This document shows, piece by piece, positions 18,696 through 43,410 of a stretch of 43,412 nucleotides of DNA. A program made the position numbers and the translations under genes. Under the pieces are notes generated by a model. It was not told the DNA's origin, ran no database searches, and saw nothing but the letters and a program-made list of their open reading frames with translations. Position 1 is the stretch's first letter; each line of letters opens with the position of its first letter. The stretch covers positions 1 through 43,412 of IMG/VR virus record IMGVR_UViG_3300014720_003346. One strand, written 5' to 3'. Source of the DNA: a virus.

Positions 18696-19010
18696 ATGAT
18701 ACGGTTAAAACATTTGCTTACAGAACAAACTGATGCTACGAAATTTTGTAAAGCAGATATCTTATCTAAACCACAATTTTCTAAAGAAAAATGGAGTGCA
18801 ATTGGTATATGGCCGCCTCCCGGAGGCCGTAATATTGGTAAAACAAATACTCCGTCGGAACATAATATCGGAAATGCTATTGATTGGCACGGAGCAAAGG
18901 GTATCGGCGATCCGGTTATGCAAGAATTAGCAGATTATTTAGTAGCAAATCATTCTACATATTCTGCCAAAAATGTTATTTACAATAAACGAATGTGGAC
19001 TTTCTCCTAA
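18696..19010 (+). CDS. M15-type peptidase, N-terminal part (frame broken at 19008)
   Basis: 104 residues ending at TAA 19008-19010, the only plus-strand gene in the window. It opens with the decapeptide MIRLKHLLTE, matching leaders of three other proteins here and the form of T4 capsid-targeting signals. SEHNIGNAIDWHG (about 59-71) is the first zinc motif (SxHxxGxAxD) of M15 DD-/LD-peptidases, followed by DPVMQELADYLVANH and VIYNKRMW, a strand common in this family. The matching second zinc motif lies downstream in the +1 frame (see 18973-19503), so the gene is either frameshifted by mutation or sequencing error, or read through by +1 slippage. Confidence 0.7.
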   Translation: MIRLKHLLTEQTDATKFCKADILSKPQFSKEKWSAIGIWPPPGGRNIGKTNTPSEHNIGNAIDWHGAKGIGDPVMQELADYLVANHSTYSAKNVIYNKRMWTFS

Positions 19011-19503
19011 AGGATGGCACGCATACACAGGAGAAAGTCCACATTTAGAACATGTACATGTTGATTTTATAAAAGGTGCAAAACCAAAAGAAAAACCAAA
19101 AGCAGATCCAAATAAAACGTATCGAGAGCAGAATGGAAAAATAATAGCAGCAATTAGACGAGTATATAAAGTTACAACGTTGTATCCTCAAGATTATTTT
19201 TATGATTTCCGTAGTTGGAATCCATTTGCTCCAGGAATTGGCGATGATGAAGAGGGCGCATATTATTGGTTTACCAATTGGTTTGCTGACAACATAAAAA
19301 GAGATATCTTAGATCCAATAAAAAAATCTACAAATACTGAAAATAAAAAATCTATTACTAATTTAGAATCATTAGTTGATGACATTGCCTCTGCCATATG
19401 GAATGGTGACAGTTTAACACAATCACTTCAATACTATTATTATAGCGACAAACAAAAAAAATTCATTAGTACTTCATTAACATTTGAATGGGACTATATA
19501 TAA
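18973..19503 (+). CDS. M15-type peptidase, C-terminal part (+1 frame)
   Basis: The open frame gives up to 176 residues, but homology-like sequence begins near GWHAYTGESPHLEHVHVDF. This supplies the HxxHVHV second zinc motif missing from the upstream frame, so it is most likely the continuation of the gene at 18696 and not an independent protein. After the peptidase domain come a Lys/Pro-rich linker (KPKEKPKADPNK) and about 120 residues of unknown type (NPFAPGIGDDEEGAYYWFTN). Its last 10 nt overlap the 3' end of the convergent minus-strand gene at 19494. Confidence 0.65.
   Translation: MLFTINECGLSPKGWHAYTGESPHLEHVHVDFIKGAKPKEKPKADPNKTYREQNGKIIAAIRRVYKVTTLYPQDYFYDFRSWNPFAPGIGDDEEGAYYWFTNWFADNIKRDILDPIKKSTNTENKKSITNLESLVDDIASAIWNGDSLTQSLQYYYYSDKQKKFISTSLTFEWDYI
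18992..19045. repeat. 17-bp perfect inverted repeat at the peptidase frame break
   Basis: AATGTGGACTTTCTCCT at 18992-19008 and its exact reverse complement AGGAGAAAGTCCACATT at 19029-19045, separated by 20 nt. The premature TAA begins on the last base of the left arm. The right arm encodes the conserved TGESPH of the peptidase. Perfect pairing inside coding sequence, coinciding with a frame change, suggests template-switch mutation, a hairpin-related sequence error, or an RNA structure affecting translation. Confidence 0.95.
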
Positions 19504-19691
19504 TTTGATTCTTTCAAATAGATATCAATTAAATCTTTAGTCTTCTGCAAGTCTTGTTCAAATGAACCTTTGTGACGGCATCTTACAATGCGTTTAATGA
19601 TATCAAATTCATAGGCATTCAATCCCCATTCTTGTGCAAATTTATAAAGACTATCCTTACCTTTGTAATGTGTCTGCGTATTTACACTCAT
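19494..19691 (-). CDS. DUF3310-like small protein
   Basis: 65 residues. HYKGKDSLYKFAQEW followed by GLNAYEFDIIKRIVRCRHKG and FEQDLQKTKDLIDIYL fits the DUF3310 ('nucleotide kinase-like') pattern of phages: HYKG, a central G-N-x-I-K-Y-I-x-R helix, and a final EDLxKAxxY helix. Function of the family is not established. It overlaps the gp62-like gene by 4 nt, and its 3' end overlaps the convergent plus-strand gene by 10 nt. Confidence 0.65.
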   Translation of the reverse strand: MSVNTQTHYKGKDSLYKFAQEWGLNAYEFDIIKRIVRCRHKGSFEQDLQKTKDLIDIYLKESNYI

Positions 19692-20137
19692 TTGATTCCT
19701 TTTAACATACGTTTTTTCTCAGCATCGCTATATCCATACATTGTTATGATGCGCTCTAATGTAACTTTATCCATTAAATCTGCATAATCCGTTGCTTCTG
19801 ATTTGCTAATTTGATAATGTTCTGCAAGTTGCGTAATTAAATCTTTATCAAATTTATCTTCAGCTTTGCCTTTAATGTATTTTGCAAAGCTCTTATTTGT
19901 AGGCAAAAGTTCATAATACAATCGATATGTTTCTTGCGGTCTAAGTAATCCAATTGTATATGTTTGCAATTCATTGACTAGTTCTGTTAATTCCATTCGC
20001 ATTGATAACCAACGATTAACAATAAATGGAGAAAATTTCTTTTGATCTGTTTCAGACCATTTTTTCCATTCTCGCTTTTTATCCGTTACGCCGCCAATCA
20101 AATCAAAAATCGTTGCACCTTTCTTTTCTTCTGCCAT
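19688..20137 (-). CDS. 62: clamp loader small subunit (T4 gp62-like)
   Basis: 149 residues. FSPFIVNRWLSMRMELTELV (about 36-55) and YYELLPTNKSFAKYIKGK (about 74-91) follow the order seen in T4 gp62 ('FMVENALS..' and 'AVPRGKRYGKWAK'), and LITQLAEHYQISKSEATDY matches its LLAKRYQVNTNDAINY helix. gp62 joins four gp44 subunits to load the gp45 clamp. It is encoded in the same direction just below gp44, with a homing nuclease and two small genes between. Assignment rests on motif order and context, as gp62 proteins diverge strongly. Confidence 0.75.
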   Translation of the reverse strand: MAEEKKGATIFDLIGGVTDKKREWKKWSETDQKKFSPFIVNRWLSMRMELTELVNELQTYTIGLLRPQETYRLYYELLPTNKSFAKYIKGKAEDKFDKDLITQLAEHYQISKSEATDYADLMDKVTLERIITMYGYSDAEKKRMLKGIK

Positions 20138-20140
20138 TCG

Positions 20141-20356
20141 TTATAATTTATATTTTTTACGATATTGTTGTTCTAAATATTCACCTATTCCGGCTTCTAA
20201 AATAACAGCAGTATCTGGTATTCCTATGATTCGTTTTGCATTTAAAATATCATCCATTGATTTGTTTCGAAACGTTTTGATTTTAGTTTTTGCGTTGCTA
20301 CGATTTGATGTTTTAAATACAATTGTAACTAAATCTTTATGATATGGTGCAGACAT
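20141..20356 (-). CDS. hypothetical protein, 71 residues
   Basis: No family recognised. Small basic protein with a short beta-rich start (DLVTIVFKTSNRSNAKTKIK), a middle MDDILNAKRIIGIPDTAVIL and a helical tail LEQQYRKKYKL. Its start overlaps the stop of the zinc-ribbon gene and it ends 3 nt before the gp62-like gene, so it is translated with the clamp-loader genes. The NAKRIIGIPDTAVILE segment could be a short nucleic-acid-binding fold, but this is a guess. Confidence 0.6.
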   Translation of the reverse strand: MSAPYHKDLVTIVFKTSNRSNAKTKIKTFRNKSMDDILNAKRIIGIPDTAVILEAGIGEYLEQQYRKKYKL

Positions 20357-20577
20357 TACTTTTTAACTTTTATAGGTTGAAATTCTTCTGGAATAGAACC
20401 GCAGTCGTCGCATCTAAATACTGGAATTGGCACCATGGTATCTTTATCGGCGCCTGTTAAAAATTTAGATACTTTGTTAATAGCCATTACTTGTCGAAAA
20501 TACATTCCGTTACATTCTTTACATGTAATTGGTTGCATATCATTTGGTTTAATTCCTGGGGTGTTTAATTTATTCAT
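20356..20577 (-). CDS. zinc-ribbon protein
   Basis: 73 residues from the chosen ATG at 20577 (MNKLNTPGIKPNDMQ). A start four codons upstream is possible but lies inside the end of the homing nuclease gene. Two CxxC pairs, PITCKECNGMYF and VFRCDDCGSIPEEF, about 35 residues apart, form a zinc ribbon. Phage zinc ribbons of this size sit beside replication or transcription genes and may bind nucleic acid or a polymerase. Between the clamp-loader genes; role unknown. Confidence 0.65.
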   Translation of the reverse strand: MNKLNTPGIKPNDMQPITCKECNGMYFRQVMAINKVSKFLTGADKDTMVPIPVFRCDDCGSIPEEFQPIKVKK

Positions 20578-21256
20578 AGTTGAACTCATTTATTCTTATA
20601 AATTTACATTTTAAATATTCTTCAATTTCTTTTTGACGTTTTATATCTTTTTCTCGTAACTTTTTATTTTTAAAATGATGTTTTTCGTCATATTCAATAA
20701 CAACGTTTTTTTCTTTATCATATCCATCTACAAAATAGCCTAAATGTTCTATAAAATATTCTCCACCATTTTCTGCATGTTGAAAATTATATCCATATTT
20801 TTGTCCATATTCATCTATCCGATTACATGCAATTTTATTATATCCGGGATAACATGGACGTTTTTCATTTAATGATTTTAATCTTTTAATTCTTTGTTTT
20901 CTTTTAGTTTCTGCAGAATGTTTATAACCGTAATGTGGATTATTAATACCCGTAACATTTATTTTAGAAAAATATCGGCCTTTTTCTGATACTTTTTGTT
21001 TAATATCCGGAATTTGTGATATATTTTCATATTGTCCATTACTAATAGTTAATGCAACTAATTTCATTTTACATGCAGGCTTACACGTTTTACCATTATC
21101 TGCAGTTTTAAATTTTGTATTACATATAATACAATCTTTTTCTTTTAGTTTTCTACATTTACTACATTTAAACAAATTAACATTAATTTTTTCAAATCTA
21201 GCTTTATATCTAAATTCCGTAATACTATCACATTCGATACATTTAATGTTATACAT
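20570..21256 (-). CDS. homing endonuclease, Vsr-like/EDxHD type, with zinc fingers
   Basis: 228 residues from the ATG at 21256 (MYNIKCIECDSITEF), chosen because AAAGGA precedes it by 5 nt; the frame is open 14 codons further up. The N-terminal third has several Cys pairs (KCIECD, FKCSKCRKLKEKDCIIC). A short NUMOD-like region (NNPHYGYKHSAETKRKQR) follows. The C-terminal domain FVDGYDKEKNVVIEYDEKHH with a following EKDIKRQ is the Vsr/DUF559-like nuclease core with the acidic-His pattern of EDxHD homing nucleases such as I-Bth0305I. It sits freely between clamp-loader gene 44 and the zinc-ribbon gene, overlapping the latter by a few bases. Confidence 0.8.
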   Translation of the reverse strand: MYNIKCIECDSITEFRYKARFEKINVNLFKCSKCRKLKEKDCIICNTKFKTADNGKTCKPACKMKLVALTISNGQYENISQIPDIKQKVSEKGRYFSKINVTGINNPHYGYKHSAETKRKQRIKRLKSLNEKRPCYPGYNKIACNRIDEYGQKYGYNFQHAENGGEYFIEHLGYFVDGYDKEKNVVIEYDEKHHFKNKKLREKDIKRQKEIEEYLKCKFIRINEFNYE

Positions 21257-21268
21257 AATATCCTTTAT

Positions 21269-21277
21269 TATAAATAT
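21269..21277 (-). promoter_or_regulatory. ATATTTATA box before the EDxHD homing nuclease
   Basis: Sense ATATTTATA lies 12 nt before the ATG at 21256, with AAAGGA between box and start. Compared with the boxes at 4 nt, this longer gap goes with a Shine-Dalgarno sequence. It would allow the inserted nuclease gene its own transcription. Confidence 0.4.
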
Positions 21278-21307
21278 ATCTGTAATAGATAAAGACATTG
21301 AATATTT

Positions 21308-22255
21308 TTACAATTCTGATAAAATTTTCGTAAACATTGCCATAACATTAATTTCCTGATCAACAACATGAGCTCCTTGATACTGTGCTTCTGCAATAAT
21401 CAAAATGCATGGAGCAATATGACCATGTGCAAAGTCATCTAAATTGTCATAAAGAAAAGTATACAATGGCGTAAAATCTTTTACTTTGCTGTCAGCAATA
21501 ACCTGACGTATTTTATTGAATGCTGCTTTTTTGTCTTTAGCATTTTTCAAAACCTCCAAGACTTCCGTCATGTAATTTGCTTGAATTGCACTTGCTTTAT
21601 CCAACTGCAAATTGCCGTTAACAACAGATGCTTGTGCTGCATTGATTGCTCGGCGAATATCTGGATATGATGCATTGATGATTGCTGCTACATCTTTAAT
21701 ATCATATGTAACGCCTTTTTCATCTAATACCACAACCAATCGCTTTGCTACATCTGATTTGCTCGGGGGCGTAATAGCAAATGTTTGACAACGAGATTGA
21801 ATTGGATCAATGATTTTTTCAACATAGTTACACGTTAAGATAAAACGCGTTGTTTTGCTATATGTTTCCATCAAATTGCGAAGAGCAGCTTGTGCATTCG
21901 GTGTTAAATAATCTGCTTCATCTAAAATAATGATTTTCCAACGACGAAATCCAACCGTTGATGCATAACGCTTAATCTTATCTCGTACCGCATCTACTGA
22001 GTTTTCATCCGATGCATTAATATACATTAAATCTGCATCTACGCTGTTTGCAATTATTTTCGCCAACGTTGTTTTGCCTGTTCCAGCTGATCCATAAAAT
22101 AATAGATGCGGAACATCACCATTTGCGATAAAGATCTTAACTTTTTCAATAATATGTTCATTGCCAATATATCCTTCTAATGTGTCTGGGCGAAATGATT
22201 CTACCCAAAGCGTGTTTTCTTGTTGTACAATCATGTTATTTACCTGTTGATCCAA
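21308..22255 (-). CDS. 44: clamp loader large subunit (T4 gp44-like AAA+ ATPase)
   Basis: 315 residues, close to T4 gp44 (319). FYGSAGTGKTTLAK (Walker A, about 53-66), IILDEADYL (Walker B, about 109-117), a sensor-1 region FILTCNYVEKII and the arginine finger SRC (154-156) identify an RFC-type clamp loader ATPase. It loads the sliding clamp gp45 on primed DNA at the cost of ATP, together with gp62. Its ATG overlaps the end of the dUTPase gene by 20 nt. The EDxHD homing nuclease follows. Confidence 0.95.
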   Translation of the reverse strand: MDQQVNNMIVQQENTLWVESFRPDTLEGYIGNEHIIEKVKIFIANGDVPHLLFYGSAGTGKTTLAKIIANSVDADLMYINASDENSVDAVRDKIKRYASTVGFRRWKIIILDEADYLTPNAQAALRNLMETYSKTTRFILTCNYVEKIIDPIQSRCQTFAITPPSKSDVAKRLVVVLDEKGVTYDIKDVAAIINASYPDIRRAINAAQASVVNGNLQLDKASAIQANYMTEVLEVLKNAKDKKAAFNKIRQVIADSKVKDFTPLYTFLYDNLDDFAHGHIAPCILIIAEAQYQGAHVVDQEINVMAMFTKILSEL

Positions 22256-22661
22256 ATCCTCCTAGCCCCCGTTTTGTATCTGATAATGAATCGGTTATTT
22301 GCCATTCTATTCGCTCTACGCGGGCCATAACCAATTGTGCAATCCGTTCACCTTTGTTAAATTCAACAACTGTGCTGCTATGATTCATTAAAATAACACC
22401 AATTTCTCCTCGATAATCTGAATCGATAGTTCCGGGCGTATTCAATACGGTTACTCCATGTTTTAAAGCTAAACCGCTGCGAGGTCTTACTTGAATTTCA
22501 AATCCTGCAGGAATTTCTACATATAAACCAGTTTTTGCTAAAACTCGTTCACCCGGATTCATCGTGATGGATTCGGTACATCTTACATCTAAGCCGGCAC
22601 TCTGAGGAGTTTCATATGCCGGCAACGCATTTAGCGATTCATTTATTACTCGTACTTGCAT
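22236..22661 (-). CDS. dut: dUTP diphosphatase (dUTPase)
   Basis: 141 residues, the length of a trimeric dUTPase. All five motifs are visible: SAGLDVR (I), RPRSGLALK (II), NTPGTIDSDYRGEIGVIL (III, with the catalytic Asp), KGERIAQLVM (IV) and RGLGGFGSTGK (V, the P-loop-like C-terminus). It hydrolyses dUTP to dUMP and pyrophosphate, keeping uracil out of phage DNA and feeding dTMP synthesis. Encoded between clamp and clamp loader; 1-nt gap to the clamp gene. Confidence 0.97.
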   Translation of the reverse strand: MQVRVINESLNALPAYETPQSAGLDVRCTESITMNPGERVLAKTGLYVEIPAGFEIQVRPRSGLALKHGVTVLNTPGTIDSDYRGEIGVILMNHSSTVVEFNKGERIAQLVMARVERIEWQITDSLSDTKRGLGGFGSTGK

Positions 22662-22662
22662 A

Positions 22663-23373: not shown

Positions 23374-23386
23374 TATTTATTCCAAT

Positions 23387-24646
23387 TTAAAATGTAAAGA
23401 ATTTATTAAAATTTTCTGCATCAGTGGTTGATATACTGCTACCACCGAATTTTTTATATGTTTTGATGTATTTTTCATATACTTGCGGAGCCGAGTCTGG
23501 ATCGGCAAACATTTCGTGCAAAGATAATATTACATCATATAAGTCTCTAGGTATTACTGTTTCTAACAATTCAACGTGACTATCAACCATTTGATTGATT
23601 TCATTTGCAGCTTGTACATACAAATGTGTATTGTGAACTACCATTCGGGGCATTGCTTCTTGCGAATATCGATCCAACCCATCTGCTGTCTTACCACCTA
23701 AATATTCATATGTAAAATCTGCACAAGCCGGACACCCCATGGAACACGGTACATGTTGAGTTAAGTCAATTGCAACCTCTCCGGTTTTGCCTTGCTTAAT
23801 ATGTGACTTTCTTCGATATTCGGCATTCTTTGGAAAATACAATTCAGAGAATGTTTGTGACTTGTAATTCGTTGAATGAAGATATGTACCAAATACTGGA
23901 TATTGTCCTGGAGATGAAGAATCTGTTGTGATATAAATTCTATTACCAGTTAATTCATTCATTAACTTTTGCAACGTAGCCAAAATAAAGAAATCTGAAA
24001 TCTTGCTAATACCAAGTAAGTGAACATATTCTAATCGTTTATTTTCAAATTCTCGCTCTTTGAGCATCAAAGAAACTGCAAACATGAAATCAACTAATTT
24101 CTGTGGTCCTCCAATTGCCCAACCTTGAAAATCAAAATGCTTAAATTTATGATACCACCAAGTATACTCATCTGCATTTGAACCTTGCAACATGTTTAAG
24201 AATTTTGTCTTGCCGCTTTGATTTTTTTCAAACCAAGCAAAGTTATCAAAACTAATGTCAGCACAAAGTGCAAATTGATTTTTATATTTTGTCTTAGGTG
24301 GGATATCTAAATTAGCTGCAACATCGCTGTTTGCTTCTAACCAATGAAAAATCTTTTCTCGTAATTCATTGCTATATGGTAATGCACCTGTTGCAATCTG
24401 ATAACCGCCCGAGTCACCAAATACAAGTACATCTTTTTCTAATCCCATTTGATCGCGGAAATCCATTTTCTTGTAATGATGTCCTGCTGTAACCAGAAAG
24501 TATGGATGTCTCCAATCTGCAGGATATCTAGAATCAAAGAATTTTACCGGATCGCCGCTTGTAAATTTCATATCTTTCTTAAATGCAGATACCATGCTGC
24601 CTGCAGATAAAGATGGAAAGTATATGAATCTTTTATTTTCGCTCAT
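23387..24646 (-). CDS. dpdA: TGT-like transglycosylase, probable DpdA (7-deazaguanine in DNA)
   Basis: 419 residues related to tRNA-guanine transglycosylase. VFGDSGGYQIATG (D78) corresponds to the TGT 'LTDSGGFQ' loop, NMLQGSNADEY to the 'GIIQGS' strand, and FQGWAIGGP to 'GYAVGG'. LLGISKISDFF corresponds to 'LMGVGKPEDL', YITTDSSSPG (D242) to the catalytic-nucleophile region, and CSMGCPAC (C301, C305, C308) with VVHNTH (H338) to the zinc site. Phage TGT relatives of this kind, DpdA, exchange guanine in DNA for 7-deazaguanines. folE, queD and queE in the same genome (31012-33306) would make the base. The glycosyltransferase upstream overlaps its start by 14 nt. DNA as substrate is inference; a tRNA target is the alternative. 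Confidence 0.8.
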   Translation of the reverse strand: MSENKRFIYFPSLSAGSMVSAFKKDMKFTSGDPVKFFDSRYPADWRHPYFLVTAGHHYKKMDFRDQMGLEKDVLVFGDSGGYQIATGALPYSNELREKIFHWLEANSDVAANLDIPPKTKYKNQFALCADISFDNFAWFEKNQSGKTKFLNMLQGSNADEYTWWYHKFKHFDFQGWAIGGPQKLVDFMFAVSLMLKEREFENKRLEYVHLLGISKISDFFILATLQKLMNELTGNRIYITTDSSSPGQYPVFGTYLHSTNYKSQTFSELYFPKNAEYRRKSHIKQGKTGEVAIDLTQHVPCSMGCPACADFTYEYLGGKTADGLDRYSQEAMPRMVVHNTHLYVQAANEINQMVDSHVELLETVIPRDLYDVILSLHEMFADPDSAPQVYEKYIKTYKKFGGSSISTTDAENFNKFFTF

Positions 24647-25666: not shown

Positions 25667-25696
25667 ATTATATAAAATTATTATATCATATCCAAA
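25667..25696 (-). promoter_or_regulatory. promoter TTTGGA-N18-TATAAT, 5 nt before the ATG at 25661
   Basis: Sense TTTGGA at 25696-25691, 18-nt spacer, TATAAT at 25672-25667, 5 nt, ATG. Same geometry as at 27470, with the same TTTGGA. It overlaps the 3' end of the HNH gene and would give the glycosyltransferase-dpdA pair its own promoter. Confidence 0.5.
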
Positions 25697-26265
25697 TAAT
25701 GTTGAATGTGTTCTGGAATATAAATAATTTTTTCTCGTTTTTTTGAATTTTCAATTCCTGGTATGATTTGTAAATTTTTTATATCTCCTATTAATTCAGC
25801 AGGAATTTTATTATCAAATCCTTTAGATTTAGGATAAATATGATCAATCGCATACCCGCCAATTGATATATGTCCAATTTTATCAAAATTTTCTAATGTG
25901 TGTAATGGTTGTTTTTTTGTAATTCGTAAAACTTCTAATATATACAAATATCTGTCATCTTTTGTTTCGGCCCATTGTTCTGCTGTCATTCCAAATTGTG
26001 CCAAAAAATATTTATCCCGATGCTGTAAATCAAACATTGGATTATTTTCTTTTAACCATTTACTATGCTCTGGGCGTTGTTTTCCTTTACTCCAAGCAGG
26101 TTTACCATACATTGGATTATTTTGTCCCGTAGATGAACAACTTTTACATACTCTAAATTTTTTTTCAGCTTCCCGGGACGTTTTTATATGATTTTTTCCA
26201 TTATACTTTAATTCAGTATTACAAAGAGGACATAAACGTAAACTATATGTATCTAAATGTTTCAT
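25681..26265 (-). CDS. HNH homing endonuclease
   Basis: 194 residues. RLCPLCNTELKYNG and VCKSCSS provide two CxxC pairs in an N-terminal zinc domain. NNPMYGKPAWSKGKQRPEHS is a NUMOD3-like DNA-binding repeat (a partial second copy, NNPMFDLQH, follows). YAIDHIYPKSKGFDNKIP, then IGDIKNLQIIPGIENSKK, is the HNH core (DH...N...N). Free-standing between the glycosyltransferase and a PTPS-fold gene, with no sign that it interrupts a coding sequence. An ATATTTATA box is 4 nt before its ATG and there is no Shine-Dalgarno sequence. Confidence 0.85.
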   Translation of the reverse strand: MKHLDTYSLRLCPLCNTELKYNGKNHIKTSREAEKKFRVCKSCSSTGQNNPMYGKPAWSKGKQRPEHSKWLKENNPMFDLQHRDKYFLAQFGMTAEQWAETKDDRYLYILEVLRITKKQPLHTLENFDKIGHISIGGYAIDHIYPKSKGFDNKIPAELIGDIKNLQIIPGIENSKKREKIIYIPEHIQHYLDMI

Positions 26266-30854: not shown

Positions 30855-31012
30855 TTTTCTTCTAATTGATCAATTAAAAATCGTAATCTATTAATTTCTG
30901 TAATAACATCATCACCTAACTCTATTTTAGACATCATGGATAAATCTATTACTTGCGTTTCTAAAACTTTGATTAATTCTCGTTGCGCGTTTATTAAATC
31001 TTCTTTATTCAT
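30851..31012 (-). CDS. hypothetical helical protein, 53 residues
   Basis: Reads MNKEDLINAQRELIKVLETQ, continues through VIDLSMMSKIELGDDVITEI and ends LRFLIDQLEEK. Nearly all helical with regular Leu/Ile spacing, so a short coiled coil is likely. The start overlaps the QueE stop by one base (TAATG). No family recognised. Too short for a long-ORF search, but the tight fit between queE and the following ORF supports it. Confidence 0.6.
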   Translation of the reverse strand: MNKEDLINAQRELIKVLETQVIDLSMMSKIELGDDVITEINRLRFLIDQLEEK

Positions 31013-31797
31013 TATACTCCTCGTTTAGTATCAAATGCAATGATATGGTCTCTTCCTGTCATGTTATAGCCATTTTCAGCACACATATCAAATACAATAG
31101 GATACATTTTTATTAGTTCTTCTCTGTTATCACCTGCGGGCATTATAAATGTTTTAGATTTTGGAATATTATGTAATACTCTAAATTCTTCAATTTCTTC
31201 TAGATTATACGATGTACCATCCCATACTGGTTTGTAATGATAATCTGCGTGAAATGCAATCATCTGTTTGATTGCTTCGTGATTGAGACGAAATTTATTG
31301 TGTTGCGCCACCATCTTCTCATCCGTAATCGTCCCTTGCGGCGTAGCAACACCCACACGGGGAACGCTATTATCAAACTTAGGACTAAGACTAATAAGCC
31401 CAATAGGATAATCGGTAGCAATAAAATGCGAGCCTTCCGTTTCAATTGTAATAAGAATGTTTCTTTCATGTGCAAAATGAGTTAATTCATTTACCAAAGC
31501 CGGATGCATTGTCGGCGAACCACCAGTTAACATCATTTCTTTGATATGTGGATTTTCATCGTATATCTTTATGATATCATTGAATGTAAATGTGCCTTTT
31601 TCTGGATGGATACTTGTATACCATGAATCGCACCAACCGCCTTCACCAAACCAACATCTATGCGTACAGCCCGTAGTTCGTACTGCAATTGTTGGTCTAC
31701 CAAATCGAGAGCCTTCACTTTGCACACATCGATACAATTCTACTATAGGCAATGTTTTTGTGTAATCTGTTATTCTTTTAGAAGGGGAGGTCGTCAT
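31012..31797 (-). CDS. queE: 7-carboxy-7-deazaguanine synthase (QueE), radical SAM
   Basis: VELYRCVQSEGSRFGRPTIA is the QueE start, with the typical 'QGEG/SEG' substrate loop. TTGCTHRCWFGEGGWCDSWY gives the three cluster Cys as C-x3-C-x7-C, the insertion form seen in many phage QueE. MMLTGGSPTMHPALVNEL matches the 'TGGEP' SAM-binding strand, and HADYHYKPVWDGTSY fits the C-terminal half. It converts 6-carboxytetrahydropterin to CDG. Start chosen at 31797 to limit overlap with the upstream gene to 20 nt; in-frame Met codons at 31806 and 31824 are alternatives. Confidence 0.88.
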   Translation of the reverse strand: MTTSPSKRITDYTKTLPIVELYRCVQSEGSRFGRPTIAVRTTGCTHRCWFGEGGWCDSWYTSIHPEKGTFTFNDIIKIYDENPHIKEMMLTGGSPTMHPALVNELTHFAHERNILITIETEGSHFIATDYPIGLISLSPKFDNSVPRVGVATPQGTITDEKMVAQHNKFRLNHEAIKQMIAFHADYHYKPVWDGTSYNLEEIEEFRVLHNIPKSKTFIMPAGDNREELIKMYPIVFDMCAENGYNMTGRDHIIAFDTKRGV

Positions 31798-32149
31798 CGT
31801 GGTACTCATTACTATTGGTAACATTGTTTTCTAATTTTTTTAATAAAGTTGCAAATTTGAATTCTAATTCTTCAAGTCGCTGATGTATTTCGATTAACGC
31901 AGATCGTCTTACAATTGGCGTCAAATCCATCTCGGGTTTAGTTGCAAAGAATTCATCCAAAAATGATACAGGATACAGTTGCACTTGACTATATTCTGGT
32001 TTTTGTGCTTCTTTTGGTAGCATTCTATATTTGATATCAACGCCCCGTTTAATAGCTTCCGCTGTTACTTCTCGACCAATGTTTGATCCACCAGAGCCTT
32101 TACCTAAATATTCAAAAAGCGATATATAAGTGTCATCATTATTCTTCAT
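31778..32149 (-). CDS. small protein with an SSB-like acidic C-terminal tip
   Basis: 123 residues from the ATG at 32149 (a start at 32176 is possible). SLFEYLGKGSGGSNIGREVT near the start, LYPVSFLDEFFATKPEMDLT in the middle, and a helical IEIHQRLEELEFKFATLLKK near the end. The last residues, NEYHDDDLPF, copy the C-terminal tip of bacterial SSB proteins (DDDIPF), the peptide by which SSB recruits replication and repair enzymes. No OB fold is evident, and the phage's own SSB (gp32-like) is elsewhere. It sits between queD and queE. Function unknown. Confidence 0.6.
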   Translation of the reverse strand: MKNNDDTYISLFEYLGKGSGGSNIGREVTAEAIKRGVDIKYRMLPKEAQKPEYSQVQLYPVSFLDEFFATKPEMDLTPIVRRSALIEIHQRLEELEFKFATLLKKLENNVTNSNEYHDDDLPF

Positions 32150-32603
32150 AACTTGCTGAGTTTCTTTCGTGTTCATATACTTCTACTTTTATTGCTTGAA
32201 CTCTGCCTTCGGTTTCTTCAAACAAAAATTTATTAATTACTGCGTACAAATATTCAGCAAACCGTTCACAACCTGTAGCAGGTAAAACACGTAATTGAAT
32301 TACGCCATCTTCATACATTCGTTTAAATTTTTCTAAATATGGATCGTCTTGTGCTATGATTGTAGTGTGGTCTAAAAGATAATCAAAATATGCTTTTGGA
32401 GACATACCATTTATTTTAGCTTTTGCACGTTTCATACCGCCGAAATCCCACACCCAATTACGTTGATCTAAATCGCCTTCAAACCATACTCGAAATGATA
32501 CTGCGTAACCATGTAAAAATTTACAATGAGTTCCATCTGCTCGCCATTGGCGAAAACATGTTGAATATCCATCAAATAGTTTTGTTGATGTAAATCGTGC
32601 CAT
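32139..32603 (-). CDS. queD: 6-carboxytetrahydropterin synthase (QueD-like)
   Basis: 154-residue T-fold enzyme. FTSTKLFDGYSTCFRQWRAD is the N-terminal strand region. THCKFLHGYAVSFRVWFEGD (about 25-44) has the catalytic Cys (C27) and the first of the usual HxH zinc pair, but HGY replaces HGH and the upstream zinc His is not obvious. LPATGCERFAEYLYAVI carries the late conserved Cys-Glu. Such divergence is typical of phage QueD. It would make 6-carboxytetrahydropterin for QueE. One base separates it from folE. Confidence 0.85.
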   Translation of the reverse strand: MARFTSTKLFDGYSTCFRQWRADGTHCKFLHGYAVSFRVWFEGDLDQRNWVWDFGGMKRAKAKINGMSPKAYFDYLLDHTTIIAQDDPYLEKFKRMYEDGVIQLRVLPATGCERFAEYLYAVINKFLFEETEGRVQAIKVEVYEHERNSASYEE

Positions 32604-32604
32604 A

Positions 32605-33306
32605 TTAATTATAACCTTTTACAAATTGATAAAATTCTGATCTTGCATTGCCATCATCTAAAAATGCTCCAGATAGTTTTGCAGTCTTCATTGAAGCTCC
32701 GCCATGTTTAACTCCACGACATTGAACGCAATTATGTGTTGCTTCAATCATAACCGCAACGCCTTTATTATTTTCAATAAGTTCATTTATTGCGTGATGA
32801 ATTGCTACTGTCAATTGTTCTTGAATTGCACCTCTTCTACCAAAGTGTTCTACAACGCGATTCAATTTACTTAAACCGATAACATTGCTATTTTCGCCTG
32901 GAATATATGCAACATGCACATTACCCATTATGGTTTGATGATGATGTGAGCACATTGAAGTTAATGGAATACCTCCTTCAAACACAATACCATCATATCC
33001 GTCACTAGGAAATGCGGTGATTCCTGACATTGGATTGTATCGACCAGCCCATAAATCATTAACATATGCCTTTGCAACTCTGCGTGGAGTATCAGATGAA
33101 TTTGGATCTTGCTTCCATTCTACACCTAATGCTGATAAAAATTGGCCATAATGATAAGCTGCATTTGAAATGATATCATTTTTTTCGTCTTGCGTTAATT
33201 CGGCATCAGGGCCATGTATTGCTTGTTTAGTTGCTAATTGCGTAGAAATGCCATTAGCAAATCCAGATTTAACTAATTCTAGATTATTTCTTTGTTTGTC
33301 TGTCAT
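32605..33306 (-). CDS. folE: GTP cyclohydrolase I (FolE)
   Basis: 233 residues. LTSMCSHHHQTIMGNVHVAY (about 115-134) has the zinc ligands C119 and H122, VIGLSKLNRVVEHFGRRGAI (about 142-161) is the family's central signature, and ATHNCVQCRGVKHGGASMKT (about 189-208) supplies the last zinc Cys and the RGV/RGI loop. It opens GTP to dihydroneopterin triphosphate, the entry to 7-deazaguanine synthesis, and is followed by queD and queE. A promoter-like TTTGGA-N17-TATATT lies upstream. Confidence 0.95.
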   Translation of the reverse strand: MTDKQRNNLELVKSGFANGISTQLATKQAIHGPDAELTQDEKNDIISNAAYHYGQFLSALGVEWKQDPNSSDTPRRVAKAYVNDLWAGRYNPMSGITAFPSDGYDGIVFEGGIPLTSMCSHHHQTIMGNVHVAYIPGENSNVIGLSKLNRVVEHFGRRGAIQEQLTVAIHHAINELIENNKGVAVMIEATHNCVQCRGVKHGGASMKTAKLSGAFLDDGNARSEFYQFVKGYN

Positions 33307-33358: not shown

Positions 33359-33850
33359 TTACATGTTTGGGTTGCCTGGTGTATCTATACCTGTCCAATC
33401 AAATTTTGATTTTATCTTTTGTAACCATCCTTTTTTATGTGCTACTACTAAAGTATCCGTTTCTTCTTGGATGTTATAATCATGCAAAAACGGAATAATA
33501 TAACGTTTATACATGTTAATACGACGCGGATCTTCTGAGTGAAAATATACAACCGTTGGTTTTTTTTCATTAATCGCACGTTTAGCAATATCGACTACGG
33601 TACTCATAACTCGATATTGATCGTGTAAATTTGTAGCAGATATACTATAATTTACGCTATCATCGGTTTGAGCGATAAATTCTATTTCCATATCATTTTT
33701 ATGATAAATTCCAGGATTATAAAATGACACTATATACTCAACATTGCCGCTGTGAAATGTAGCTTGTTTTTGATTTCCAAAATATTGATATGGGTATGGC
33801 TGTGAACTTGCATCGCCAATTTCTAATAATATATCTCGTAATCGTATCAT
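33359..33850 (-). CDS. protein with capsid-targeting-like leader
   Basis: 163 residues from the ATG at 33850, chosen because the protein then begins MIRLRDILLE, matching leaders at 18696, 42494 and 43410, and because the ATG lies 1 nt after the upstream stop. The frame is open 26 codons further, inside the DUF5522 gene. The rest has a strand-rich half (HSGNVEYIVSFYNPG, MEIEFIAQTDDSVNYSIS) and a helical segment with TVVDIAKRAINEKKPTVVYF and YKRYIIPFLHDY. No known family. If the leader is cut after the Glu as in T4, the mature protein would be packaged in the capsid. Confidence 0.7.
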   Translation of the reverse strand: MIRLRDILLEIGDASSQPYPYQYFGNQKQATFHSGNVEYIVSFYNPGIYHKNDMEIEFIAQTDDSVNYSISATNLHDQYRVMSTVVDIAKRAINEKKPTVVYFHSEDPRRINMYKRYIIPFLHDYNIQEETDTLVVAHKKGWLQKIKSKFDWTGIDTPGNPNM

Positions 33851-33851: not shown

Positions 33852-34073
33852 TTAATAAATATCTTTGAGTGTTGTATTGCCTTTTTCATGTGCAGGTTCA
33901 TACGCACAATGTCTACAACCCGATCCACAACAACTTCCTCTTCTGCGATGATATGCTTCAGTCATTACACGACGACCTAATTCATCATAATAAAAGTCCG
34001 TTGGAAGGAGCTTGCTTCCAAACTCCCTCACGAACTGTTGTTGTATCCAATCTTTTCCTGCTGGCTGCATCAT
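33852..34073 (-). CDS. DUF5522-like Cys-rich protein
   Basis: 73 residues. FYYDELGRRVMTEAYHRRRG leads to SCCGSGCRHCAYEPAHEK: the pattern 'TExYHxxRGxCCGxGCRHCPY' of DUF5522, small bacterial proteins with a putative metal-binding Cys cluster and no assigned role. The first ATG is overlapped by the stop of the GIY-YIG gene (TAATG), so the nuclease seems to have been inserted exactly in front of this gene. Confidence 0.75.
   Translation of the reverse strand: MMQPAGKDWIQQQFVREFGSKLLPTDFYYDELGRRVMTEAYHRRRGSCCGSGCRHCAYEPAHEKGNTTLKDIY
33854..33862 (-). promoter_or_regulatory. ATATTTATT box before the capsid-leader gene at 33850
   Basis: Sense ATATTTATT, one base off the ATATTTATA element, ending 3 nt before the ATG. 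It lies within the last codons of the DUF5522 gene. Weak on its own but consistent with the positions at 70, 18683 and 26270. Confidence 0.3.
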
Positions 34074-34831
34074 TATTTTATCTCTTTTGTTATTTTTATT
34101 TTGTATCCTTCGTATGATAATTTACGTTTTCTAGATGATTTAATAATAATATCTGTTTGTCCATTGCGTATTTCATTATTATTTTGACCGCATAATGTAT
34201 ATTCTTTTTTCAAATATCCAATACATTCATACCGTTTAAGTAAATTCATATCCAAATCATATAAATATGCATACCCTTTCCACGTACTATTATTCGAACC
34301 TTTAGAGTTTTTACTTCTTATAGCTCGAGCTTCTGGGGTGTTACATATTTGTTTCATTATACGTTTGCGTTTGGCAATTATATCTGGATTTTGGTTTGCT
34401 CGATTAACTCCATCTTTAACTTTTTTAGAATATTCCTCAGTTTGCCATAATCGTTTAGTATTTTCACTATGTTTTATTCGATTGATATTATTCCAATATG
34501 ATGATGTTTTTGATAATAATTTTCTTGTTCTTTCTTGTTCCTCATTTGAACGTAAACTAAATGTGTCACCACCTTCGCCGCCAGTTGTTAAGTTGTATCC
34601 TATAGATCTACATGTAGAATTATAATATGCAATCCAATACTTTTCACGGTCACACATATGTTTTTCAGACTCGCAATATTCTATTATTACTTTTTCAAAA
34701 TTTTCTCTACCATATTTATTTATTGAACTATTTAAACGTTTACCCGAACCTAAATATTTAAGATTATCGTGTTTATCTTTTCCGATATAAATTTTTCCGT
34801 TAATCAAATTAGTTGTTTTATAAATAATCAT
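34073..34831 (-). CDS. GIY-YIG homing endonuclease
   Basis: 252 residues. IYKTTNLINGKIYIGKDKH (about 3-21) is the GIY-YIG motif, KYLGSGKRLNSSINKYGREN (about 25-44) the usual next block, and CDREKYWIAYYN carries the catalytic Glu. Repeated basic helices follow (RIKHSENTKRLW, SKKVKDGVNRANQN, IIAKRKRIMKQI), as in NUMOD-type DNA-binding tails of SegA-like phage nucleases. It stands free between the ribonucleotide reductase and DUF5522 genes. AAGGAG lies 5 nt before its ATG but is locked in an 11-bp hairpin. Confidence 0.88.
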   Translation of the reverse strand: MIIYKTTNLINGKIYIGKDKHDNLKYLGSGKRLNSSINKYGRENFEKVIIEYCESEKHMCDREKYWIAYYNSTCRSIGYNLTTGGEGGDTFSLRSNEEQERTRKLLSKTSSYWNNINRIKHSENTKRLWQTEEYSKKVKDGVNRANQNPDIIAKRKRIMKQICNTPEARAIRSKNSKGSNNSTWKGYAYLYDLDMNLLKRYECIGYLKKEYTLCGQNNNEIRNGQTDIIIKSSRKRKLSYEGYKIKITKEIK

Positions 34832-36798: not shown

Positions 36799-36810
36799 TA
36801 CTTTCTTTCA

Positions 36811-36819: not shown

Positions 36820-36823
36820 CATT

Positions 36824-38179: not shown

Positions 38180-38185
38180 ATAACC

Positions 38186-39270: not shown

Positions 39271-40420
39271 CATAAACTTCATCTACGACAATTACGTCAT
39301 CAATACCACCATCAACACCGGCTTGATATTTGAAGATATAAGCATCGCATATTCTTTGATATAACCTTTCTTTTGCTTCTGAGTTATTAATAACCTTTTC
39401 CACAAAATCTTTGCTTTGAAATTTGAGCTCGCCATGAGTTTCACCAGTTTCGATATCTACGTCTTCTAACGTATACCATGCCCCGGATTGCTTAACGATA
39501 TCAAAATTCTTCATGATGTTCAACCAACCACCATAATTGTCAATTCCTGAATCATAATAGATTTCATAATCAACTTTGCGATGTGGAGGACCCATCCTGT
39601 TTTTTACTACTTGTACATTTGTTTTGCTACCCACAACTTGTTCAACACCACTTACTTTGGCTTTGATCATTCCGGTATTTTTCAAACGCAATCTAACCGA
39701 AGCATGAAATGGAATTGCTTTACCGCCTGCAGTTGTCCATTGATCACCAAATGATACGCCCATTTTGGTACGTAATTGATTGGTAAATATAAGACAAATA
39801 CGTTCTCGTGCAATCCAATTGGTAACTTTTCGCATTGCCTTTGATAATATAATGGATTTGCTTGTTGCATAACCATCCTTATCATACTCAGCTGACATTT
39901 CAATTTTTGTAGATGCACCCATGATTGAATCCACTACAATCGTAACTAAACGATTTTTGTCTGATTTACGTACTCCTTCAACAATAGTTTCAATTGTTTC
40001 AAAAATTTCTTCAATTGTCTCTAAAGGAACATAAAGCATTGTTTTCAAATCAACGCCAATTGCTGTTAAAAATTCAGAACTTACTGCAGCTTCTGTATCA
40101 ATATATACTGCTAATCCGCCTTTCTTTTGTGTTTCTGCTAATGTGTGTGCAGCTAACAACGATTTACCAGATGCTTCCAATCCGGTAATTTCAGTGATGC
40201 GCCCAACGGGAAAACCTCCATGGGCGCGATTTGAAATTGCTAAATCGAGCATCGAGCAACCAGATGATACCCATTCTGTTACATTGCTTGGAGCATCTTC
40301 ATCGCCATCTAAAAAGAATGCAGTTTTGAGTGCTTGACCTTTAAATTGCTTGTTGATACTTTCTGCCAATGTTGATGCTAGAGCATCTTCTATTTCCAGT
40401 TTACTTTTACTCTTTGCCAT
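39260..40420 (-). CDS. uvsX: UvsX RecA-like recombinase
   Basis: 386 residues (T4 UvsX 391). ITEITGLEASGKSLLAAHTL (about 75-94, Walker A), YIDTEAAVSSEFLTAIGVDL, VTIVVDSIMGASTKIEMSAE (Walker B) and LIFTNQLRTKMGVSFGDQWT (Gln sensor and L2 region) follow the RecA order. It forms the filament on single-stranded DNA for strand exchange, recombination-dependent replication and repair. Acidic C-terminus (DDVIVVDEVYDEE). GAGG lies 7 nt before the ATG. It is encoded directly after gp32, its partner in T4. Confidence 0.94.
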   Translation of the reverse strand: MAKSKSKLEIEDALASTLAESINKQFKGQALKTAFFLDGDEDAPSNVTEWVSSGCSMLDLAISNRAHGGFPVGRITEITGLEASGKSLLAAHTLAETQKKGGLAVYIDTEAAVSSEFLTAIGVDLKTMLYVPLETIEEIFETIETIVEGVRKSDKNRLVTIVVDSIMGASTKIEMSAEYDKDGYATSKSIILSKAMRKVTNWIARERICLIFTNQLRTKMGVSFGDQWTTAGGKAIPFHASVRLRLKNTGMIKAKVSGVEQVVGSKTNVQVVKNRMGPPHRKVDYEIYYDSGIDNYGGWLNIMKNFDIVKQSGAWYTLEDVDIETGETHGELKFQSKDFVEKVINNSEAKERLYQRICDAYIFKYQAGVDGGIDDVIVVDEVYDEE

Positions 40421-40435
40421 TTTATAACCTCACTG

Positions 40436-41206
40436 TTAGTTGTTGAATAAATCATCAAATGCAGAAGCAACATCATCAACTTTTTTAGTTGCAGCCGGCT
40501 TAGCAGCTTTTGCTGGAGCTGGAGCTTCGTCTTCATCATCTGAATCAACATCTGAATCTGCATTTTCTGGATTCATCCATTCTGCTAATGCTTTTTCTAA
40601 TTCTTCATAAGATGGTTCTGGAAATAAATCAGTAATCGTAGGTTGATTCATGATTTTTTGTGCAATGTCTTTGTCTTCGGTTGCAGGTTGTGTATTAGGC
40701 TTAACACGAATTGCAGTCTTTGGATAAGCTCCGCCTTCTGCTGGCGTAAACTCTACATCAATATCACGACCATTCATCAAATCCGTAATGTCACCATAAT
40801 CTGGATCAGAGATAATTGAAAGCAATTCTGTGTAGATTGTTTTACCAAATCCCCAAAACTTAACACCTTCAGATTCCTTACCGCGAATAATTACGGGAAC
40901 ATAGGTACGCATTTTAGGTTCAATCTTACGACCCATTAGCCAATCTTCTTTATCTCCGGTTTTTTTAAGCTTATCTGCAAATTCTACGATTGGATCTGCA
41001 TTGCCAAATGTGATCGGCGATAACATGGATTTCTTTCCGATGTCATAATGAAAATACAATTCTAAAAACGGATTTTCTTTGCGATGAACGTAAGGTACAA
41101 TGCGCACCCTCGTTTTTCCTGCTTCGGGTTTCCAAAGATTCTGTTTTTTGTCATCGGCTTTGTTTAATTGATTAAGTTTTGCTTTGATAGCATCTAAGTT
41201 TAACAT
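40436..41206 (-). CDS. 32: single-stranded DNA-binding protein (T4 gp32-like)
   Basis: 256 residues. Basic N-terminal AIKAKLNQLNKADDKKQNLW corresponds to the cooperativity domain. The core has TRVRIVPYVHRKENPFLELY, the 'fhY..gk' strand region and VKFWGFGKTIYTELL. The C-terminus is strongly acidic (ADSDVDSDDEDEAPAP) and ends in a short hydrophobic tip (ASAFDDLFNN), as in gp32. It coats single-stranded DNA and recruits replication proteins. AAGGA lies 6 nt before the ATG. The zinc ligands of T4 gp32 are not obvious. Confidence 0.9.
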   Translation of the reverse strand: MLNLDAIKAKLNQLNKADDKKQNLWKPEAGKTRVRIVPYVHRKENPFLELYFHYDIGKKSMLSPITFGNADPIVEFADKLKKTGDKEDWLMGRKIEPKMRTYVPVIIRGKESEGVKFWGFGKTIYTELLSIISDPDYGDITDLMNGRDIDVEFTPAEGGAYPKTAIRVKPNTQPATEDKDIAQKIMNQPTITDLFPEPSYEELEKALAEWMNPENADSDVDSDDEDEAPAPAKAAKPAATKKVDDVASAFDDLFNN

Positions 41207-41228
41207 AAATTTCCTTTTTGTTAAGTTG

Positions 41229-41975
41229 TTAATAAAAAATAATTAATAATAATATAATTGATTTACCGGTTAAATCCAAGTTTATAATTTGTTTTTTTTT
41301 TAAATTCATCGTTTGTTTAAATGATTCGAGACGCTTTCGTTTATGTTCGTTAGATTGTGGCCCAGTTTTACGACCTAGTAACGTATTGCTAATTTTTTGT
41401 TTTATTTCGTCAGTTTTAGGTTTACCATAATTATGGTTTTTTTCACCTTTTTTTGCATCGCTTAGTTTTTTCTTTATCTCATTAGATAACGGTTTACTCA
41501 TTTGAGATTCGCTCTTTTGTAGTCGTCGATCTTTTGTCCAAGCTGCACTTAACTTTTTTTTAGTTTCGTTAGTATGTTGCTTACCTTTATTCCAAGCTTC
41601 TCGGCCTTTACTTGATTGACCAATTTTAAGTTTAGTTTCATCAGAATGAGTGAATGATTTTCTTGCTTCACTAATTAATAGTTTAATATGCTCGTATTCT
41701 CGACTACTAACCGTATAATTGCGTTGTTGCGTATTACTTTGTGTCTTGTTAGACATTAACCATAACGCATATAATAATTTATGATCATTAGGATATATTT
41801 CACAAAGAAGTTTATGTGCTATGAAATGTTCTCGAGCTGTTAAGTCGACTAAATTTGATGCATCATTGTTCCCGCCTATACAACGTGGTATGATGTGATG
41901 TCTTTCTTTGTAACCTTGCAATGTTCTTGTTCGAGCTCGGTCAATTAATTGTGTATAAATTTGTTCATAATTCAT
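41229..41975 (-). CDS. HNH homing endonuclease with NUMOD3 repeats
   Basis: 248 residues. ERHHIIPRCIGGNNDASNLV (about 25-44) and LTAREHFIAHKLLCEIYP are the HNH core of the phage 'HHIIPR' type. Three to four basic NUMOD3-like repeats follow (DETKLKIGQSSKGREAWNKG, NEIKKKLSDAKKGEKNHNYG, DEIKQKISNTLLGRKTGPQS). The last residues (GKSIILLLIIFY) are oddly hydrophobic and may be read-through of intergenic AT-rich DNA after an insertion event. It stands free just upstream of gene 32 with a 22-nt gap. AAGGA lies about 11 nt before its ATG. Confidence 0.85.
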   Translation of the reverse strand: MNYEQIYTQLIDRARTRTLQGYKERHHIIPRCIGGNNDASNLVDLTAREHFIAHKLLCEIYPNDHKLLYALWLMSNKTQSNTQQRNYTVSSREYEHIKLLISEARKSFTHSDETKLKIGQSSKGREAWNKGKQHTNETKKKLSAAWTKDRRLQKSESQMSKPLSNEIKKKLSDAKKGEKNHNYGKPKTDEIKQKISNTLLGRKTGPQSNEHKRKRLESFKQTMNLKKKQIINLDLTGKSIILLLIIFY

Positions 41976-42050
41976 TTAATTAGTATCCTTAGTTAATTAA
42001 TTATAATTTAATTAGTTATGTCGTTAATTCAAAGTTAATTGTTAAATTTT

Positions 42051-42494
42051 TTAGAATAGATAATCAGAAAGTACTTGATCATTTATTCCGTGTTTTTTTG
42101 CAACAAGTTCATCTTGTATTTCTACATTTTGAATATCGCCATCTTCATCGAATGAAACAGTAAAATCAATAGTATCAGATCCTACTTTTAATTCACAATC
42201 AAATTCAATATCAGATACTAAACGTGTTTGGTCATATGCACCCGTTGGATCGTTTTCACTTTCAATTTCTTGTTTGATGTCGTTTATCAGATCTTGGAAA
42301 TCGCTTTTATCAGCTACGCCGCCGCCTTGATATGTTACATACGAATATCCGCCAATATTTTTATCATATTCTGCACCGTTAATGACAAGTTGAACGTTAT
42401 TAGAATCTAATTTATTTGTTAAATTTGTTTCAGATAAATTTTTAGTACCAAATCTACGCATATTTTCAGCTAAGATGTTTTTTAGATTTTTCAT
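42051..42494 (-). CDS. acidic protein with capsid-targeting-like leader
   Basis: 147 residues. It begins MKNLKNILAE followed by NMRRFGTKNLSE. The decapeptide has the length and [IL]-x-E ending of T4 internal-protein leaders and matches three others in the window. The rest is acidic and strand-rich (GYSYVTYQGGGVADK, DIEFDCELKVGSDTIDFTVS) with no recognised fold. A second possible cut site is NLSE at residue 22. A packaged, injected internal protein is the favoured role, by inference. Confidence 0.75.
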   Translation of the reverse strand: MKNLKNILAENMRRFGTKNLSETNLTNKLDSNNVQLVINGAEYDKNIGGYSYVTYQGGGVADKSDFQDLINDIKQEIESENDPTGAYDQTRLVSDIEFDCELKVGSDTIDFTVSFDEDGDIQNVEIQDELVAKKHGINDQVLSDYLF

Positions 42495-42519
42495 AATTAT
42501 ATTCTATTAATATTAAAAT

Positions 42520-43410
42520 TTAATTTTTCCGAAATGTAATTTTTTTGTTATCGTCTTGTACAGCATTCCAGTATGTAGAAATATTGTTGTATACATCCTG
42601 TACTACAGCTTCTTCGTTTTTATTAGTCTGTAATTTTGCCATTAGTATGGTACAATCACCTTTGCCACTAATACATACATCTACTACCGGTTCTAGAAAC
42701 GAGCCTCTCATTTTCCCAGCTGCAATCTTGCCTGTTTTTCGGAAGAAAAAAGAAGGATCAATTTCAATATCAAATTGCGTCCAATATTCTGGGTCTAACT
42801 TTGTTTTGGGATATTTGCGGATTTGGCGCCATGAACATATGTTCCATTTTTTTCCTTTCGTAACTGTCCATTTTGAGTTTGGGAGTGTGTTTAATTTTTT
42901 AGTAATAGCGTCAAACAAAGACCACGGTTTTAAATACGACATAAATGTAAGACCACTGTTAGGTTTGCCGGCGGTAGGCATCAACGTTTTGTACAATCTA
43001 GTGCCAGCGGAAATTTCATCACCGCTTTGAGAAAAAGTTTGTTCTTTGCCTTGTTTGTCTTTGTATGTATATGATATGAAATTAATTTTATCTAAATAGT
43101 AACCGTTATTTTTTATATTACCAAACGTTACAGAAAGTAACCCGTTATCATGAACTAAAGTAGCTTCAAATCTACTGTATCCGTAGGTACCTGGCATTTT
43201 AATGCTGTTTTTGTCTCTGCTAGCATTATCAAAATATAAACCTGTAATTTTAAAAGTTTCGTATTCGGATCCGATCTTTTGACTAATGAAGCTTCCGTTT
43301 ATTTGTGGAATCACCGAGTTAAATAACCTGGCCATTGCTTGATTCAAATTTTCATCACGATCCGTAGTGGCTGAAGCCTGTTCAACTAAAATATTTTTTA
43401 ATTTTATCAT
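42520..43410 (-). CDS. large protein with capsid-targeting-like leader
   Basis: 296 residues, complete; its ATG is 2 nt inside the right edge of the window. It begins MIKLKNILVE, then QASATTDRDENLNQAMARLF. The remainder is a soluble mixed protein (GTYGYSRFEATLVHDNGLLS, YLKPWSLFDAITKKL) without a family I recognise, and has few Cys. The leader matches those at 18696, 33850 and 42494. With the gene at 42051 it forms a pair, separated by 25 nt, upstream of the replication block. Confidence 0.7.
   Translation of the reverse strand: MIKLKNILVEQASATTDRDENLNQAMARLFNSVIPQINGSFISQKIGSEYETFKITGLYFDNASRDKNSIKMPGTYGYSRFEATLVHDNGLLSVTFGNIKNNGYYLDKINFISYTYKDKQGKEQTFSQSGDEISAGTRLYKTLMPTAGKPNSGLTFMSYLKPWSLFDAITKKLNTLPNSKWTVTKGKKWNICSWRQIRKYPKTKLDPEYWTQFDIEIDPSFFFRKTGKIAAGKMRGSFLEPVVDVCISGKGDCTILMAKLQTNKNEEAVVQDVYNNISTYWNAVQDDNKKITFRKN

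Follow-up and report, generated by a model that had tools for sequence, protein, structure and literature searches.

In bacteriophage T4, the capsid-targeting sequence (CTS) corresponds to the first ten residues of the internal protein IPIII, residues 4 and 7 being mainly implicated by mutagenesis in targeting and residues 8 and 10 in processing, and the protease gp21 acts in the prohead by cutting after L/I-x-E (available portions of the review PMC9026906). The three T4 internal proteins (Ips) block three distinct GmrSD restriction enzymes, one each, and the target of Ip1 is described as cutting glucosyl-hydroxymethylcytosine (glucosyl-hmC) DNA; the internal proteins of T-even phages have already been found by their leader (excerpted text of PMC12373910). 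Here we describe leaders resembling this sequence in a 43,412-base IMG/VR virus record of a T4-like phage (IMGVR_UViG_3300014720_003346), hereafter the window, in which four genes starting at positions 18696, 33850, 42494, and 43410 open with similar short peptides. We hold, with a probability of roughly 85%, that these leaders are capsid-targeting propeptides of an enlarged set of injected proteins in an uncultured T4-like lineage.

The leaders share with those of T4 IPII, IPIII, and gp24 a ten-residue N-terminal format, hydrophobic residues at positions 4 and 7, L or I at position 8, E at position 10, attachment to unrelated bodies, and a gp21-type protease. All four window proteins begin with ~10 residues that close with [LI]-x-E, and the positions conserved here (4, 7, 8, and 10) are the functional ones of T4 (T4 side from the available portions of PMC9026906). 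They differ from the T4 leader (MKTYQEFIAE) in their consensus, M-I-[RK]-L-K-x-L-L-x-E, and the lineage also has a second, 22-residue, two-site leader type. The cargo differs too: T4 Ip1 to Ip3 are GmrSD inhibitors (excerpted text of PMC12373910), while here it includes hydrolases of the cell wall and a kinase-like protein. A further likeness, drawn by description only, is to DarB of phage P1, where N-terminal residues suffice to send a reporter into the head; unlike the system described here, P1 apparently has no separate scaffold, and DarB is a 250-kDa antirestriction protein (partial text of PMC9024508). In the giant phages phiKZ and SPN3US, a gp21 relative likewise cuts many head proteins on the C-terminal side of Glu, with several cut sites per propeptide, comparable to the two-site leader; their propeptides are mostly long, in contrast to the short leader, and the phiKZ specificity is S/A-x-E (available portions of PMC9026906 and PMC5694885). 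The kind of leader is known from T4, whereas the second leader class, the exchange of leaders, and the set of cargo proteins are new. Among the titles and abstract openings listed in the open-access literature, none described capsid-targeting leaders in uncultured T4-like phages, and a 22-residue two-site leader was not described in the literature searched.

A leader restricted to the starts of unrelated proteins

The gene content of the window is T4-like (DNA polymerase, single-strand binding protein, UvsX-like recombinase, replicative helicase, and clamp loader), and, judged by its polymerase, it is closest among cultured phages to Microcystis phage Mel-JY01 (45.7% identity). A preliminary description of the sequence had reported the leaders MIRLKHLLTE (18696..18725, plus strand), MIRLRDILLE (33821..33850, minus strand), MKNLKNILAE (minus strand, from 42494), and MIKLKNILVE (43381..43410, minus strand), all of which were found at these starts. 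The strict motif, M-x2-L-[KR]-x-[IL]-[IL]-x-E, was present at 4 of the 912 start codons of the window (ATG, GTG, or TTG on both strands, followed by at least 40 open codons), precisely the four reported. Its core, L[KR]x[IL][IL]xE, occurred four times in the 60 called open reading frames (ORFs), always at the N terminus (Fisher test; P ~3e-10). The bodies behind the leaders had been called otherwise unrelated, and the four families indeed fell into four different clusters (BLASTP, E 1e-4). The claim that all four leaders are ten residues long held for 18696, 33850, and 43410 and failed for 42494, where the shared unit spans 22 residues.

We then considered the window together with 15 relatives (16 records; 1,690 ORFs called by a simple longest-ORF rule, 1,360 of them distinct, 347,567 residues). 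Four of these relatives (G001, G002, G028, and G029) belong to the window's own population, and the near-identical records G009/G006, G010/G011, and G028/G029 were merged only at identical protein sequences. The core lay at position 4 in 49 of the 1,360 distinct proteins, whereas only 10 of the 338,047 remaining sites had it (~1,200-fold enrichment); in 200 shuffles of the first 30 amino acids, matches averaged 0.05 and never exceeded 1. Conservation also extended to positions 2 and 3, left free by the motif (entropy of 1.35 and 1.58 bits, versus 3.1 to 3.9 at residues 11 to 30). Synonymous codons varied at L4, L8, and E10, and the leader leucines were encoded by several codons, so that it is the peptide and not the DNA that is conserved. 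The 49 distinct leader-headed proteins were distributed among 26 body clusters.

A two-site leader and the exchange of leaders

The leader of the 42494 gene (MKNLKNILAENMRRFGTKNLSE, 42429..42494, minus strand) is a 22-residue unit with [LI]xE sites at residues 8 to 10 and 20 to 22. We refer to this unit, M(x)LKNILAENMxRFGTKNLxE with two [LI]xE sites, as class B and to the ten-residue leader as class A. When the 42494 protein was used as a query, 47 of the 80 loci kept, out of 105, matched only inside residues 1 to 31. In the 16 records, 32 ORFs fit the class B core expression (first match per ORF), and each of the 32 has a methionine, 10 to 17 residues ahead of the match, with which the leader begins, some called ORFs starting further upstream. 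Among all fetched loci, from which 208 leader ORFs and 76 distinct class B ORFs were drawn after retrieval with leader-headed queries, 74 of the 76 class B ORFs ended in KN[LI]xE; the search rule stopped at KN[LIV], so the xE of the second site was free of it. The first site carried E in 75 of 76 ORFs and K in the other, the rule allowing only these two residues, and in locus L006 a K at the first site is accompanied by an intact second site. A further [LI]xE was found within 30 residues in 39 of the 76 class B ORFs versus 26 of 208 body windows. Queried by tblastn against 50,697 phage records, the 22-residue leader gave no match at E 10, which the shortness of the query may explain.

The body of the 42494 protein (42051..42494, minus strand; 147 amino acids [aa]) carries the class B leader in the window and a class A leader in its homologs at loci L008 (88% identity) and L011 (80%), so that the two leader classes are interchangeable on one body. 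The structural model of this protein (predicted local distance difference test [pLDDT] score of 78) had no PDB match better than E 0.053. In relative G023, six class B and one class A leader-headed genes with differing bodies are clustered at 119023-126541, a possible cargo island.

Putative cargo proteins

The preliminary description had inferred that one of the leader-headed proteins is an M15-type peptidase; the M15-like gene is the one at 18696. Such peptidases are recognized by an SxHxxGxAxD motif and a second motif with a zinc-ligand histidine. Both motifs are present, in order, in intact single-ORF homologs from G004 (264 aa) and G030 (255 aa), and the M15-like assignment is by motif only. 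The window gene itself is split: a first piece of 104 aa with the leader and SxHxxGxAxD (18696..19010, plus strand) ends early relative to the homologs, and a second piece with HxH lies in another frame (18973..19503, plus strand). G028 and G029 are identical to the window across the split (18696-19503), for which a dead gene, an assembly matter, and a programmed frameshift are candidate causes. The M15-like protein had no Pfam or NCBIfam match; a homolog compared with PDB sequences by phmmer retrieved 6 chains, none of them a peptidase, and by tblastn on phage records it gave one partial match, in an Arthrobacter phage.

The second class A leader heads a 163-aa protein (33359..33850, minus strand; cluster 1) with a DUF6934 body (PF22028; E 9.4e-08, 32.6 bits versus a cut-off of 27). 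Its ATG at 33850 is internal to an ORF that opens at 33928 with GTG, and we favor 33850 as the start because the leader and an upstream box (described below) are found there. A pattern scan for relatives of this protein confirmed 0 of 11 candidate stretches. The 43410 protein (42520..43410, minus strand; 296 aa) had no match in family searches. Its start is 2 bases from the contig end; G001 extends further upstream, and there the ORF opens at the same ATG. Its relatives were restricted to near-identical sequences at 3 loci, one of them partial.

The window population encodes at least nine leader-headed genes: the window contributes four, G002 three, and G028 a further two, of which one has a looser form of the leader. 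Two of the five in linked contigs encode class B proteins; the others encode a kinase-like protein, an endolysin/transglycosylase-like protein, and a DUF5872 protein, the last being the one whose leader is looser. A leader-headed protein of G028 had a PHROG labeled endolysin as its best match and also matched an injection-transglycosylase family. The longest relatives, G003, G009, and G023, carry 13, 15, and 13 leader genes, respectively, looser forms included. Of 20 hand-picked leader-headed proteins, 7 had Pfam matches above the cut-off, namely to phage lysozyme (accompanied by LysM in one case), phage tail lysozyme combined with LysM or GDSL, a peptidoglycan-binding domain, and DUF5872. The other 13 had none, and most of the cargo is thus left unnamed by PDB and family searches.

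The kinase-like family was analyzed in 65 distinct proteins from the best 80 of 263 loci. I2 and L4 were conserved in 65/65 leaders and E10 in 64/65, and mean identity was 0.75 at residues 1 to 10, 0.41 at residues 11 to 20, and 0.71 at residues 21 to 60. In the structural model (pLDDT 83), residues 1 to 9 scored below 50. Nearly all of the 50 matches listed by Foldseek and by VIA were, by title, kinases, kinase-fold phosphotransferases, or complexes containing one of these, with modest scores (best E of 5.4e-04; best Z of 8.8, with a root mean square deviation of 3.7 and 124 aligned residues). The protein had no Pfam match over the cut-off and no tblastn match on phage records at E 0.01. In G002, its gene adjoins an ORF that partially matches a virion structural family (E 1.4e-10), with endonuclease and primase genes on the opposite side.

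Prohead protease and head genes

The window is connected to other contigs by long overlaps. G001 overlaps its right end (8,625 bases, 99.99% identical), G002 overlaps G001 (18,852 bases, 99.99% identical), and G028 overlaps the left end of the window (23,070 bases, 100% identical). Judging by these overlaps, the window, G001, and G002 represent one population, not one molecule. G002 carries a head block in T4 order: portal, S77 protease, probable scaffold, and Gp23 capsid protein. The protease matches PF03420 (Peptidase S77) with 112.3 bits versus a cut-off of 27 and is 33% identical to T4 gp21. H85, S140, and D168 of T4 gp21, which we take to be the catalytic residues, were invariant in the 5 sequences compared. 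The probable scaffold had no family match and is named by position. Sites matching the cut motif were found in it (LQE31), in two neighboring ORFs (LTE17 and ILE11), and in the protease itself. S77 proteases were present in 11 of 30 records and in 11 of the 12 records of at least 59 kb.

Controls in cultured T4-like phages

T4, Mel-JY01, and S-PM2 served as controls picked independently of the leader. Applied to all 272 called ORFs of the complete T4 genome, the looser rule M..[LIY]..[LIF][LI].E, whose residue classes were chosen after the T4 starts had been seen, gave 3 matches, which were ipII, ipIII, and gene 24, all encoding known gp21 substrates; a wider hydrophobic class gave 5, adding an ORF at 8908-9165 and gene 61.1. 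The latter (18966-19130) starts with MKTFKEFIKE, which resembles the T4 internal-protein leader. The preliminary description had credited IPI to IPIII with a ten-residue leader; this is correct for IPII and IPIII, whereas the first [LI]xE of IPI ends at residue 19. The looser core was also found inside proteins, at 27 sites in T4 and 15 in S-PM2.

A box upstream of leader genes

The commonest 8-mer upstream of genes in the 16 records was ATATTTAT, possibly the late-promoter box of the lineage. In the window, the upstream scan located this putative box at 18683..18690 (plus strand), upstream of 18696, and at 33855..33862 (minus strand), upstream of 33850. It was found within 50 nucleotides upstream of 30 of 66 leader genes versus 235 of 1,294 others (P = 1.2e-6), and it preceded 5/5 of the portal genes shown and 0 of the replication genes shown. 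The late box of T4 is TATAAATA, the reverse complement of which overlaps ATATTTAT. TATAAATA itself was not enriched upstream of leader genes (1/66 versus 12/1,294 others).

Other genes of the window

At 31012-33306 and 23387-24646, the window encodes QueE-like radical SAM, QueD-like, and GTP cyclohydrolase FolE proteins, along with a protein that matches TgtA weakly (E 0.0087) and contains a DSGGYQ stretch, together likely a 7-deazaguanine pathway. Because these genes are encoded, the phage DNA may carry 7-deazaguanine modifications. The 33850 gene comes next after FolE, with QueD beyond; since these genes adjoin it and T4 Ips block GmrSD enzymes, its protein is a speculative candidate for an antirestriction role. 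A long run of sugar-related genes extends over 1850-17018, with a NeuB-type synthase (8930-9760), a PseB-type dehydratase (7336-8310), and ORFs that look, by eye only, like methyltransferases and glycosyltransferases. Four ORFs resemble homing endonucleases (20570-21298, 25681-26265, 34073-34831, and 41229-41975; NUMOD3, HNH, and GIY-YIG, several below the cut-off). The ORF at 25681-26265 also matches the GmrSD C-terminal domain, though below the cut-off.

Weighing the interpretations

By analogy with T4, hydrophobic residues 4 and 7 would mediate binding of the leader to the prohead core late in infection. The S77 protease, a homolog of gp21, would then cut after [LI]-x-E, at E10 in class A and at E10 and/or E22 in class B leaders. 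The freed body would remain inside the head alongside the DNA and accompany it into the next host, where this body may act as an effector. The capsid-targeting proposal of the preliminary description gains from the enrichment at protein starts, the agreement with T4 functional positions, the T4 control, and the linked protease, while the capsid protein leaves it equivocal at one site.

Several observations weigh against this interpretation. The gp21-type protease that the preliminary description looked to is absent from the window itself and is instead reached in G002 by way of G001, across the 99.99% identical overlaps; G018, one of the 12 records of at least 59 kb, had no S77 match. The [LI]xE sites expected in the capsid protein exist as LLE32 and LLE48, but further downstream, at the place where Mel-JY01 has ISE, the sequence is VKE57, which is not [LI]xE. 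The 15 relatives were picked through matches to the window's leader-headed proteins and are, because of this selection, biased toward leaders. Outside the lineage, the strict motif matched 0/272 ORFs of T4. The T4-like cyanophage S-PM2, which has gp21, had 0/254 matches even by the looser rule, and Mel-JY01 had 2/245 (60276-60926 and 96164-96964), so the leader signal is not universal in T4-like phages; looser-rule enrichment was 22-fold in T4 and 15-fold in Mel-JY01, versus 190-fold in the window. The ATATTTAT box was not upstream of 36 of the 66 leader genes, nor was it upstream of the capsid, probable scaffold, protease, and terminase genes shown, which perhaps lie inside operons. Finally, several cargo bodies are cell-wall hydrolases, and in other phages such enzymes often act in tails or lysis.

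The last point leads to the alternative that survives best, though we consider it improbable: the leader could dock proteins elsewhere in the virion, for example at the tail or baseplate, with the hydrolases acting during penetration. The lysozyme, tail-lysozyme, and endolysin/transglycosylase-like bodies among the cargo would suit such a role, as would the position of the G002 kinase-like gene beside an ORF partly matching a virion structural family. However, the leader ends at the [LI]xE motif of a protease that acts inside the prohead, and T4 gp24, which opens with the same pattern, is a head protein.

Two further explanations are very unlikely. The shared start might reflect a mobile cassette of promoter and ribosome-binding site, spread as DNA and encoding a functionless peptide, and some leader genes do have upstream sequence and the ATATTTAT box in common. 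Many upstream sequences differ, though, and conservation of the leader matches that of the folded part, with a variable linker in between; the silent codon variation at conserved residues led us to reject conservation at the DNA level. Equally hard to credit is descent of the whole proteins from one ancestral internal protein, with the leader as its last recognizable remnant. Single-linkage clustering does place 64 of the 208 leader ORFs in a single cluster, in which class B predominates, but the bodies belong to different families (lysozyme, tail lysozyme and GDSL, DUF5872, DUF6934, kinase-like, and M15-like) and both leader classes occur on one body. A chance likeness of short amphipathic protein starts, which the shortness of the motif and the internal occurrences of the looser core might suggest, was rejected as practically negligible in view of the position counts, the shuffles (49 starts versus 0.05 expected), and the conservation across 65 homologs.

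Implications for T4-like phages

Beyond capsid targeting as such, it is possible, though we advance it only tentatively, that the lineage carries a modular injected arsenal, in which two interchangeable head-targeting tags, one of 10 residues with one site and one of 22 residues with two sites, would deliver, in the three longest records, 13 to 15 cargo proteins apiece. Among these, the hydrolases and one minimal kinase might act at entry, and some cargo proteins might protect 7-deazaguanine-modified DNA from modification-dependent restriction, as T4 Ip1 to Ip3 act against GmrSD enzymes. What this lineage adds to the picture from T4 is the class B leader and a cargo with hydrolases and a kinase-like protein. 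If the leaders are capsid-targeting propeptides, candidate injected proteins could be listed from uncultured T4-like genomes by a short sequence rule; most of these proteins would have no known function, and some would be likely to act against first-line host defenses.

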